DNA of 36,673 bases from Bacillota bacterium (GTDB lineage Bacteria; Bacillota; SHA-98; UBA4971). The position numbers were made by a program, and so were the translations under genes. Within the stretch, counting starts at the first letter, position 1. Every line of letters starts with the position of its first letter. Where the stretch lies: the NCBI GenBank assembly GCA_024653485.1, contig JANLFY010000022.1, forward strand, positions 236 through 36,908, written 5' to 3'. The notes beneath the pieces were generated by a model. The model was given only the letters and a program-made list of their open reading frames with translations, was not told where the DNA came from and did not search any database. Below are positions 4,691-18,381 of the stretch, one piece after another.

Positions 4691-4960
4691 CGGTCGTGCA
4701 CCCACTGTCGAACGTCTCTCCCAGGCGGTAACCTGCCAGCCGGCTCCGACCAGGCACCCCCGCGGCACACGGAACATTCTGCTTACCGCTGCTACCTCCC
4801 GGTCCTGACGGGGTTCACAGACATCCGTTGCGCGGGACCCAGCCATCTTCGCTACTTAACAGGGCCAGGCCCCAAAAAAGAACGCCCTCGAGTGGGAATT
4901 CGACCCCGCTATAGCGGGTTGCGGGTTCAGGGCACCGCTACCTCCCCGTCTAGCACGACC
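4691..4960 (-). ncRNA. ffs: Signal recognition particle RNA, large Bacillus type
   Basis: The minus strand contains the diagnostic helix 8 segment GTCAGGACCGGGAGGTAGCAGC (rc of 4787-4808), where the canonical sequence has GTCAGG-CCGGAAGG-AGCAGC. The 5' Alu-domain start GTGCTAGACGGGGAGG and the loop sequences GGTGCCCTGAACCCGC match Bacillus scRNA. The ends are complementary (5' GGTCGTGC, 3' GCACGACC), which fixes a length near 270 nt and shows that the Alu domain is present. In the tetraloop region GGGA replaces the more usual GGAA. It lies between the tRNA-Ser genes and dnaX, as in Bacillus. The RNA scaffolds Ffh for co-translational membrane targeting. Confidence 0.95.
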
Positions 4961-5021
4961 AAACTCTCTGTCACTCTGACCCATGGCCTGACGGCCTATC
5001 AGAAGGCCTACCAGAACAATA

Positions 5022-5115
5022 TGGCGGAGAGGGCGGGATTCGAACCCGCGAGGCAGAGGACTTCTGCCTACCCGCTCTCCAGGCGGGCGCCTTAGACCAA
5101 CTCAGCCACCTCTCC
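5022..5115 (-). tRNA. tRNA-Ser (GGA)
   Basis: The minus strand folds as a class II tRNA with acceptor GGAGAGG/CCTCTCC, a long variable arm, T-loop GGTTCGAATCC and an encoded CCA at 5024-5022. The anticodon stem CCCGC/GCGGG encloses CTGGAGA, giving anticodon GGA, which reads UCC and UCU. It is seven bases downstream of tRNA-Ser(CGA). Confidence 0.96.
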
Positions 5116-5123
5116 GCAAAGGC

Positions 5124-5216
5124 TGGCGGAGAGAGTGAGATTCGAACTCACGGGGCAGGGGCTACCCGCCCACTCGCTTTCGAGGCGAGCGCTTTAGACC
5201 ACTCAGCCATCTCTCC
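5124..5216 (-). tRNA. tRNA-Ser (CGA)
   Basis: Class II tRNA on the minus strand with acceptor GGAGAGA/TCTCTCC, discriminator G and encoded CCA. The anticodon stem CTCGC/GCGAG encloses CTCGAAA, giving anticodon CGA for UCG codons. With tRNA-Ser(GGA) and SRP RNA it forms a small RNA-gene cluster between tadA and dnaX. The 5219-5494 stretch upstream of it has no gene I can support. Confidence 0.96.
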
Positions 5217-15441: not shown

Positions 15442-15516
15442 GATGAAGACAGGACATGGCTGGGAAGGTTTCGCGAGGGACGACGCATGGACACGCACAC
15501 GCACGGGAGAAACACG

Positions 15517-17211
15517 ATGCATACGATGAGCGTGCCGGGAATCGTGGAGGTGGACGCGGGCACGGGGATCCTCCACCTCAATCACGCAGCGCTCCCTCGC
15601 GCGGCCGACCGCATGATCTTCGGGCGCGGACTCGCGGCGGGCTGTGTTCCCGAAGCGGTGGAGACGGTGGCGAAGCTGGCGCAGCCGGGACGCCGAGGCG
15701 TCCTCCTTATAGTCGGAGAGACCAGTTCCAAAGCGCCAGGCGTGTCTCCTCTCATTGAAAAGCTCAAGCGCCTCGGCCACGAAGCAGGCGCTGGAGTGGA
15801 GACCCTTGTTGTTGGCAGGCACGCCGACCACGCCACCATACGCGCCGGTATCGAGATCGCACGGCGCCACCAAGTAGGTGTCGTGGTCGCTGTCGGCGGC
15901 GGCACCGTGATCGATGTGGGTAAGTCCGTCGCCGCCCTCGCTTACCAGGAGTACGAGGAGATCCCGTCGTCGAGGCCCGCGGTCCATCTAGAAGCCGCTT
16001 GGGAGGCCGGAAGCGCCGCACGACTGCGTCCCCGCGAATTCGCCGAGGACGAGCCGGGCGCAAGACCCGAAGTAGAGGTGGACATAGCAGGGTACCAACT
16101 TGGCAGGCGCCGCTTGACGCCGGCGAGAGCGCTTCCGTGGGTCGCCGTGCCGACCACATCAGGCACAGGCTCTGAGAGCACAGACAACGCCGTCATTGAG
16201 CTGGGCGATGAGAAGAAGAGCATTCGCGGCATCCCGGCCCCGCGTTTCGTCGCTGCAGATCCTGCCCTCACCGACCCGCTACCCCTGACGCCCACGATAG
16301 TAGCGGCTGTGGACGCTCTCGCCCAATCGCTCGAAGTCCTCGTAAGCGCGGCGGCATCAGCGGAAGTGCAAGAAGTGGCCTTGGCGGGGTTCGCGGCTCT
16401 GGCCAGCGGCGTCGAAGACTTGTGCACGGCTGCGGTGCGTGGCATCAGGGAGGCCGCGCCATGCGCCACACCTTCTGGAGAGCCAGAGTGTAAGCGCCTG
16501 TACACAGCGTGGCCGGCGTCACCGGATTCAGCGGACGCGGTGGCGCCCGCTACCAGGGACTCTTTGTGTTGGGGAAGCCTTCTGATGGGTCTTGCGTTTG
16601 CTAACGGCCGACTTGGGTTGCCTCATGGGCTCGTACACTTCTGCAACCGCTTCGGCCTTTCCCACGGCAACATGGTGGGGATACTGCTCGCGCCGGCCCT
16701 CGCAGTGCAAGCGCGCGACTCGGAGACCGCGTGGCGCCTGACGCGAGCGGCTAAGGCGCTTGACGACGCCTTGCGGCGCTATCGCGCCCACGGGCGCGAC
16801 ACGTCACTGAACGGACGCGAGCCCGCCGCGAGCACTCCCGCGATCACTTCCGCGAGCGCTTCTGCAACCGCGCTTCCCACAGGAACCGTGCTTCTCACGG
16901 GCGTTCCCTCAGGCGTTGGACGGGCAATGCCGAAGGATCTATCAGCGACCGAACGGATAGGACAAAGGATGCCCCGGGAAGGCGTGCTCCCTGGCTCATC
17001 GCCAGATCCGCTCTTCAGGTGGCTGGAGTCAAGGATTCCGTCTCTCTTCAAGGCGGCTGGTCTACCCACTACCTTGCGAGCTGCTGGTCTAGCGAGCGAG
17101 GATTGCGACTGGATAGTCGCGCGGGAGCTGGAGAGTCGACCGTCCTTCGGCACCTCAGCCCGGTCGGCCACGCCCGCCGAACTCAGGGAAGTGCTCCAGA
17201 GAGCTCTCTAG
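15517..17211 (+). CDS. Iron-containing alcohol dehydrogenase-like protein with a replaced metal ligand
   Basis: The family's NAD site GGGTVIDVGKSVAA and the PTTSGTGSE loop are present. The metal region reads VDALAQSLE where the family has (M)DALTHAxE, so the first His ligand is Gln; the Asp stays. The second and third ligands appear in LPHGLVHFCNRFGLSHG. Family enzymes are about 390 residues; this one is about 564, with inserts near residues 160-212 and 320-355 and an Ala/Ser/Thr-rich insert near 430-500 (numbering from the alternative ATG at 15487). GGGAG ahead of the ATG at 15517 favours that start. Activity with iron or zinc is doubtful and the substrate is unknown. It follows degV by about 120 bases. 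Confidence 0.8.
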   Translation: MHTMSVPGIVEVDAGTGILHLNHAALPRAADRMIFGRGLAAGCVPEAVETVAKLAQPGRRGVLLIVGETSSKAPGVSPLIEKLKRLGHEAGAGVETLVVGRHADHATIRAGIEIARRHQVGVVVAVGGGTVIDVGKSVAALAYQEYEEIPSSRPAVHLEAAWEAGSAARLRPREFAEDEPGARPEVEVDIAGYQLGRRRLTPARALPWVAVPTTSGTGSESTDNAVIELGDEKKSIRGIPAPRFVAADPALTDPLPLTPTIVAAVDALAQSLEVLVSAAASAEVQEVALAGFAALASGVEDLCTAAVRGIREAAPCATPSGEPECKRLYTAWPASPDSADAVAPATRDSLCWGSLLMGLAFANGRLGLPHGLVHFCNRFGLSHGNMVGILLAPALAVQARDSETAWRLTRAAKALDDALRRYRAHGRDTSLNGREPAASTPAITSASASATALPTGTVLLTGVPSGVGRAMPKDLSATERIGQRMPREGVLPGSSPDPLFRWLESRIPSLFKAAGLPTTLRAAGLASEDCDWIVARELESRPSFGTSARSATPAELREVLQRAL

Positions 17212-17313: not shown

Positions 17314-17428
17314 CCTTCGTGATGACACCGCCCCGTGGAGGGATCTTGTCGAAGAGATCTCCCCGGAACCAGCGAATTCAAGAGAGACCGAAAGGATCTA
17401 CTGGCATCCGATGGGAAGGAGCGTCTTC

Positions 17429-17566
17429 GTGGCTAGGCGTTGCGTGTTTCTGATATCGATCGGGGCGTCCGTCGGCCTGGTGGCGCTCGGGGTGCTTGCA
17501 GGAGACCCCGCGCGAGTATTCGCCAACGCGATAATCCTGTGCCTCTCCTGCATAGGGATACAATGA
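17429..17566 (+). CDS. CD1871A-like small CxxC membrane peptide
   Basis: This 45-residue peptide has one membrane helix (about residues 6-24) and ends AIILCLSCIGIQ. The tail matches the CLxCIGI signature of the small CD1871A-type CxxC proteins of Bacillota, whose function is unknown. The frame is open much further upstream, but AAGGAG at 17416-17421 stands seven bases before the GTG at 17429 and gives the normal family length. Its TGA overlaps the ATG of the polyferredoxin gene (ATGA), so the two are translationally coupled. The CxxC could pass electrons or disulfides to that partner; this is inference. Confidence 0.75.
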   Translation: MARRCVFLISIGASVGLVALGVLAGDPARVFANAIILCLSCIGIQ

Positions 17567-18381
17567 CTCGCGTCCTCGAAGGCGACCGGCAGAACGGACG
17601 GCTGTCCGCGGAAGAACGAACAACGCCGCGGGCGAGAGGGCGTTGGCAGGCACTTGGTTTCGTCCTGGCCAATTCCTATTTCTTCAAGTTCCTCAGACAC
17701 CTCCCCTGCCCCACGCTGAACTGCTATGCGTGTCCTGCGGCGAGCTTTGCGTGTCCGATCGGCACGCTTCAGCATTTCGCCGCCACGCGCCGGGTGCCCC
17801 TATTCACCCTGGGCATCCTTGGGGCGGTCGGAACGATTTTCGGAAGGGCGGTCTGCGGTTGGGCATGCCCGGTGGGAGGGTTTCAGGAGCTCCTGTACAG
17901 CGTCCCCGTTCGGAAGGTGCACGTATCGAACCGTTTCACCTTCGTGAGGTACTTTGTGCTCGCGGGGCTGGTGTTCGCCATACCTTTCTTCACCGGCGAG
18001 CCATGGTTCTCCAAGCTGTGCTTCGTGGGCACGCTCGAGGCCGGCGTGCCGCTCGTTCTCGGTGACCGCGCGATCCGGTCGCTAGTAGGTCCTTTCTTCT
18101 GGATCAAGGTGGGCATCACAGCCGCGATCATCCTTCTCATGCTCTTCGTGAAGAGGCCCTTCTGCCGGTTCATATGCCCGCTCGGAGCGTTGTACGCGCC
18201 TTTCAACAAGGTGGCTCCCGGTTTCGTTATCGTCAAACGGGACCTCTGCGTCGAGTGCGGCAGGTGCACGGAGGTCTGCCCCATGGACCTCGACGTCCCA
18301 GACGAAGTGAACGGCCTCAACTGCATTCGATGCCGTGAGTGCGTGGGAATGTGCAAAGCCCTGGAACGACCAGGAACCTAG
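17563..18381 (+). CDS. NapH-like membrane polyferredoxin (4Fe-4S)
   Basis: This 272-residue membrane protein has four hydrophobic segments (about 80-95, 127-143, 155-167, 178-196). Cytosolic cysteine motifs include an N-terminal CPTLNCYACP with a further Cys64, two CxxxCP motifs typical of NapH/CcoG/RnfH-like proteins (Cys98/102 and Cys201/205), and a C-terminal pair of 4Fe-4S clusters (Cys229, 232, 235, 239 and Cys254, 257, 260, 264). Such proteins move electrons between quinol or cytosolic donors and a periplasmic or membrane reductase. No reductase is encoded beside it. The only linked gene is the small CxxC peptide, which overlaps its start. Confidence 0.85.
   Translation: MTRVLEGDRQNGRLSAEERTTPRARGRWQALGFVLANSYFFKFLRHLPCPTLNCYACPAASFACPIGTLQHFAATRRVPLFTLGILGAVGTIFGRAVCGWACPVGGFQELLYSVPVRKVHVSNRFTFVRYFVLAGLVFAIPFFTGEPWFSKLCFVGTLEAGVPLVLGDRAIRSLVGPFFWIKVGITAAIILLMLFVKRPFCRFICPLGALYAPFNKVAPGFVIVKRDLCVECGRCTEVCPMDLDVPDEVNGLNCIRCRECVGMCKALERPGT

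Follow-up and report, generated by a model that had tools for sequence, protein, structure and literature searches.

A CxxC peptide and a NapH-like iron-sulfur protein as a candidate transmembrane electron relay to extracytoplasmic thiols

Introduction

NapH-like membrane proteins have been proposed to act as transmembrane electron conduits to flavinylated extracytosolic carriers, and the text of that study mentions neither CxxC motifs nor selenocysteine (PMC8238504). According to the excerpts considered here of a second study, Mad6, encoded in the magnetosome gene clusters of deltaproteobacteria, mostly represents a NapH domain, a Mad6 mutant of Desulfovibrio magneticus RS-1 forms few magnetosome particles, and a selenopeptide upstream of Mad6 is not described (PMC4287615). 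On the side of small thiol peptides, a literature search covering partial texts found nothing on the CD1871A family (NF040920) by name, nor on its selenocysteine (Sec) forms, its pairing with NapH or its function, and no description of a peptide-NapH module. Likewise, no listing of CD1871A-type peptides was found in the portions of the selenoprotein literature covered, which include part of the table of a 2026 review on prokaryotic selenoproteins (PMC13188914).

In this study we describe such a pair of genes in a DNA stretch of 36,673 nucleotides from a member of the Bacillota (contig JANLFY010000022.1), termed “the window” throughout, together with its relatives in other genomes. The peptide and the NapH-like protein look like a previously undescribed electron route across the membrane to thiols on the outside.

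The peptide gene

The peptide gene (17429-17566, +) starts with GTG, ends with TGA and is translated into the 45 residues VARRCVFLISIGASVGLVALGVLAGDPARVFANAIILCLSCIGIQ. An AAGGAG ribosome-binding site, read directly at 17416-17421 (+), is located 7 nt 5' of the start codon, and the stop codon overlaps within ATGA (17563-17566, +) with the ATG at 17563 of a 272-codon gene. Both the overlapping arrangement and the short start set by AAGGAG, as claimed in a preliminary description of the locus, are confirmed. A scan for sigma-70 promoters found nothing, and there was no match to the peptide among plasmid records.

From its basic N-terminal tail the peptide proceeds through a single helix and an acidic turn to another hydrophobic segment, which carries the CLSC motif (17540-17551, +) with the putative redox pair C38/C41; given this layout, the CxxC is expected at the outer face of the membrane. 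Among 61 sequences the kept positions are G(-17), an acidic residue (-12), C0, C3 and G5. The traits of CD1871A (short, one membrane helix, C-terminal CxxC) are present, the score against NF040920 is 28.9 bits, under the cut-off of 32, and orthologues exceed this cut-off (G010 of the same genus, 36.2 bits; G001 and G009, 32.2 bits). Judged by its relatives, the reading frame is not a chance one, since it recurs with the same neighbour across many phyla and since most substitutions affect the third codon position, i.e., follow a synonymous pattern.

At 15487-17211 (+) the window also encodes a 574-residue iron-alcohol-dehydrogenase-like protein with weak and patchy family matches. A similar gene occurs near the module in members of the genus, and none was seen beside the module elsewhere.

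The NapH-like iron-sulfur protein

The second gene (17563-18381, +) encodes a 4Fe-4S membrane protein of 272 residues with four predicted membrane helices. The length originally reported for this protein is correct; the 16 cysteines reported with it are in fact 17, 16 of which are invariant across 44 relatives, C49 being the variable one. Two stretches match Fer4_5 (PF12801; 67.8 bits, above the gathering cut-off of 22), and the C-terminus harbours a two-cluster ferredoxin-type domain (C229-C264; 18247-18354, +), which bears out the earlier reading of NapH/CcoG-like and double 4Fe-4S motifs. Against NapH/MauN (TIGR02163) the score is 62.7 bits, below the cut-off of 213, and by these profile matches the window protein is a distant NapH relative. 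A DsbD/CcdA domain (PF02683) is absent.

The signature of the clade, CPTLNCYACPAASFAC (17707-17754, +), contains C49 and the invariant C54, C57 and C64 and is predicted to be extracytoplasmic. A fourth invariant residue, C153 (18019-18021, +), is located in a predicted second extracytoplasmic loop, the context of which reads CPAGTLEAG in most relatives. The two Fer4_5 motifs, CGWACP (C98, C102; 17854-17871, +) and FCRFICP (C201, C205; 18160-18180, +), are predicted to face the cytoplasm. An AlphaFold model (mean pLDDT 86.5) in conjunction with the positive-inside charge pattern suggests a topology of four helices with both ends cytoplasmic, which would put the ferredoxin domain in the cytoplasm, C54/C57/C64/C153 at the outer side and C98/C102/C201/C205 at the inner one. 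The 16 invariant cysteines form four sets of four: eight residues belong to the ferredoxin domain, and the charge pattern assigns four to either membrane face. Sequence and fold searches retrieved no solved structure resembling the membrane part and yielded weak matches to the ferredoxin domain only.

Linkage of the peptide and the NapH clade

The NapH clade was defined by the motif LNCY[SA]CP. Within the family of the window, the peptide and a strong NapH match coincide, both being present in the same 10 out of 13 genomes and both missing from the remaining three. Among 398 genomes of the phylum, the peptide was matched in 60 and NapH (E 1e-40) in 64, including all of the 60; in three of the four NapH-only genomes, a peptide that has diverged is encoded where it would be expected. 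The NapH match of the fourth, G382, and second copies in G027 and G143 are devoid of LNCY[SA]CP, and no peptide was found for them. Counted by clade, 63/63 genomes with the NapH-like protein also contain the peptide, compared to 0/335 of the other genomes. The NapH-like gene is positioned downstream on the same strand in 61/61 peptide loci, and its start is found within 0.7 kb in 60 of these; in G027 the distance amounts to 2.1 kb.

The latter locus (L093; G027:C1 2792642-2795837) shows a gap of approximately 2 kb versus 270 bp in G143, which might reflect an insertion. In the window's genus the spacing ranges from the overlap seen in the window to approximately 0.5-0.7 kb, and the spacers of L014 and L020 contain no convincing gene. 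In L128 (approximately 1290-1700, +), L159 and L164 (approximately 4707-5190, +), the peptide gene is separated from the NapH-like gene by one for a small membrane protein of the CPxHG...LP...CPxCG type.

When GTDB genomes were scanned independently, using nothing but the NapH alignment, at least 591 relatives were obtained. The best 80 were taken, which span Bacillota, Actinomycetota, Chloroflexota, WOR-3, Spirochaetota, Thermodesulfobacteriota, Acidobacteriota, Riflebacteria and others. For 79 of these best 80 out of at least 591, a peptide is encoded on the same strand, either immediately upstream (72), further and in some cases far upstream (5), or downstream (2; L168 and L187), leaving one without. 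The linkage is close to obligate: the survey for conserved adjacency of CD1871A-type peptides to a 4Fe-4S membrane protein, proposed as a check in the preliminary description, returned a value close to 100%, and a two-protein transmembrane redox relay is hence well supported. A lack of conserved linkage, named there as a refutation of the postulated “minimal transmembrane electron relay”, is thus contradicted; the physical interaction of the two proteins we infer. Natural in-frame fusions of peptide and NapH were looked for and not found. In a model of an artificial fusion (intergenic stop read as Gly, 20 in-frame loci) the peptide helix is confident, and junction residues 45-93 have a pLDDT <50, so that the model yields no usable interface.

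The N-terminal motif of the NapH clade, searched with a hand-written consensus, is also encoded in two unannotated contigs of a phage collection, termed “Bacteriophage sp.” and obtained from human faeces (MT836098.1, MT836032.1), which are perhaps misassigned bacterial or mobile DNA.

Selenocysteine variants

Among the best 80 of at least 591 NapH relatives, 11 loci feature an in-frame TGA in place of exactly one CxxC cysteine, 10 of them at the first position and L132 at the second. The ten first-position frames continue with U-x-[SA]-C-I-G-x-G up to a true stop. Full-length SelB is present in 10/11 Sec genomes, the eleventh containing a fragment, versus 2/7 controls with a Cys-type peptide. 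Several Sec loci form hairpins of approximately 6-7 bp, approximately 15 nt past the TGA and with GG at the loop start, the individual z-scores of which are weak. For these relatives, as distinct from the window, the position of TGA and the occurrence of SelB are those of selenoproteins, and the individually weak hairpins are consistent with this assignment. Mapped onto a tree of 87 NapH proteins, the distribution of Sec is most simply explained by five changes, at least two of which are forced by well-supported branches.

Sec at either position of a Sec/Cys pair usually signals a redox-active dithiol. The exchange of Sec and Cys at either CxxC position favours a thiol role over a purely structural one and, as far as sequences can tell, points to a catalytic thiol or selenol rather than a passive ligand.

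A common gene order is seen in the Sec-type loci L128, L134, L153 and L159, where a trypsin-like gene, MamE-like in L128, lies upstream. These loci are apparent magnetosome clusters and contain genes for small membrane proteins downstream. Likened by description and gene order, their NapH-like gene may be mad6.

The thioredoxin partner

A gene for a TlpA-type thioredoxin (PF00578/PF08534) adjoins the pair, either upstream or downstream, in 91 of 140 loci (48/61 in the phylum, 43/79 in others), and its active site is UxxC in 20 cases across the 140 loci; the “none” class of the contig tally for the TlpA motif includes three loci with an unparsed motif. Since TlpA is adjacent in approximately two thirds of the loci, the chain of carriers probably does not end with the peptide. 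Of the roles initially suggested for the CxxC, “terminal thiol or cluster ligand”, the thiol is favoured by the Sec/Cys exchange, and the terminal position is probably not correct. UxxC-type TlpA genes were noted beside the module in L066, L074, L075, L077-L080, L083-L086, L088-L091, L093, L094, L096, L098, L141 and L161; in these genes the first active-site cysteine is replaced by an in-frame TGA, and ordinary gene calling would truncate them.

Approximately one third of the loci are without a recognised adjacent thioredoxin. No TlpA gene was found beside the pair in the window, in its genus or in the rest of the class, except for one sister genus of the same family, and the earlier statement that no reductase is nearby is right for the window, but many relatives do have a TlpA-type neighbour. 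No credible candidate for a thioredoxin gene that had escaped recognition emerged from a regex search beside the TlpA-less loci; a thioredoxin-like lipoprotein was detected by Pfam beside L150. The genome of the window (G000) encodes an unlinked TlpA (C3:238149-238676), which is a candidate partner only, since two members of the genus that lack the module contain its orthologue as well.

Relation to CcdA/DsbD

CcdA/DsbD (PF02683) is rarer in genomes with the module (19/63) than in the others (251/335), corresponding to an odds ratio of 0.14 (Fisher p 2e-11) with genomes counted regardless of relatedness. In the genome of the window itself, a single CcdA locus is found at C12, away from the module and accompanied by a thioredoxin of its own. 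The depletion of CcdA suggests, at the level of gene content, that CcdA and the peptide-NapH module can substitute for each other.

Proposed mechanism and alternative explanations

The account that we favour, and consider probable in light of these sequence patterns, is a transmembrane relay in which electrons flow outward from the NapH-like Fe-S protein via the peptide dithiol to a TlpA-type thioredoxin. The NapH-like protein would take up cytoplasmic electrons through its two-cluster ferredoxin domain and pass them via a cluster held by C98/C102/C201/C205 to the four invariant extracytoplasmic cysteines C54, C57, C64 and C153, which probably ligate a further cluster. The peptide would span the membrane once, with the N-terminus inside and the C-terminus outside, and pack against the NapH-like protein, and its CxxC (in some relatives UxxC or CxxU), embedded in the membrane, would convert one-electron Fe-S chemistry to two-electron thiol chemistry. 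The dithiol or selenolthiol would in turn reduce a secreted TlpA/ResA-type thioredoxin, the product of the next-door gene in most lineages and possibly of the unlinked C3 gene in the case of the window. The module would thus accomplish via Fe-S clusters what CcdA/DsbD does via thiols.

Alternatively, the peptide might be a small subunit, the CxxC of which serves as a structural or cluster ligand in completing or capping an Fe-S cluster or metal site on the extracytoplasmic side. The peptide is indeed as invariant as a subunit, and the NapH-like protein provides cysteine sets on both faces, yet the 16 invariant cysteines already suffice for four clusters, Sec replaces either peptide cysteine in several lineages, as is typical of redox thiols, and the TlpA neighbours suit thiol chemistry; we regard this reading as unlikely. 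Electrons could also travel inward, if TlpA and the peptide were to collect them from extracytoplasmic thiols in a DsbB-like process of oxidative folding and the NapH-like protein delivered them to quinone or a cytoplasmic acceptor; DsbB-type systems likewise use a membrane dithiol. Ferredoxin-type clusters, on the other hand, are usually more reducing than thiols, the partners are TlpA/ResA-like, normally a reducing group, rather than DsbA-like, and the depleted system, CcdA, is itself a reducing one. Even considering that NapH-like proteins have been proposed to pair with reductases or oxidases (PMC8238504), we deem the inward direction quite improbable. Finally, the short reading frame, which overlaps or abuts the next gene, could be taken for a leader or coupling peptide that merely sets the translation of the NapH-like gene. 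This explanation was rejected as highly implausible in view of amino acid conservation over many phyla with synonymous change, the reversed gene order and the Sec variants; in particular, the reversed order and the pattern of synonymous change argue for a protein product.

Comparison with known systems

If the outward relay is true, it explains how a requirement of many anaerobes, the reduced state of secreted thioredoxin-fold proteins, is satisfied in the absence of CcdA/DsbD, and it represents a minimal in-membrane conversion of one-electron cluster to two-electron thiol chemistry by 45 residues. Moreover, it provides a testable function for a function-less “CXXC motif-containing” family, adds a selenoprotein family to those in the consulted part of the 2026 review table and suggests a redox partner with which Mad6 of the magnetosome might act.

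The window peptide resembles CD1871A in its one membrane helix, the RGE/GD loop and the C-terminal CLxCIGIx, and every CD1871A match examined adjoins the same NapH clade; it differs as a sub-type with CLSCIGIQ instead of CLECIGIG. The NapH-like protein shares with proteins of the NapH/MauN, NosR and CcoG type (PF12801, TIGR02163) two CX3CP repeats, membrane helices and a C-terminal 2x[4Fe-4S] domain, whereas its clade adds the N-terminal CxPxLNCY[SA]CPx5CP and the almost obligatory association with a CxxC peptide; the surroundings examined contain no nap, mau or nos genes. Flavinylated NapH-like systems differ in their carrier, which in the module would be the dithiol peptide plus TlpA, and no FMN-binding domain, which together with ApbE marks a flavinylated system, was found in the NapH-like protein or the scanned adjacent proteins. 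With DsbD/CcdA the module has in common the proposed outcome, reducing power for extracytoplasmic thioredoxins; it is distinguished by the absence of any sequence relation and by an Fe-S rather than a thiol conduit, and the two systems tend to exclude each other. Whether the module amounts to one more, widespread kind of transmembrane system for thiol reduction, in which an Fe-S wire and a 45-residue dithiol or selenolthiol peptide serve TlpA, replace CcdA/DsbD in anaerobes and are also used in magnetosome formation, is in our estimate evenly balanced.
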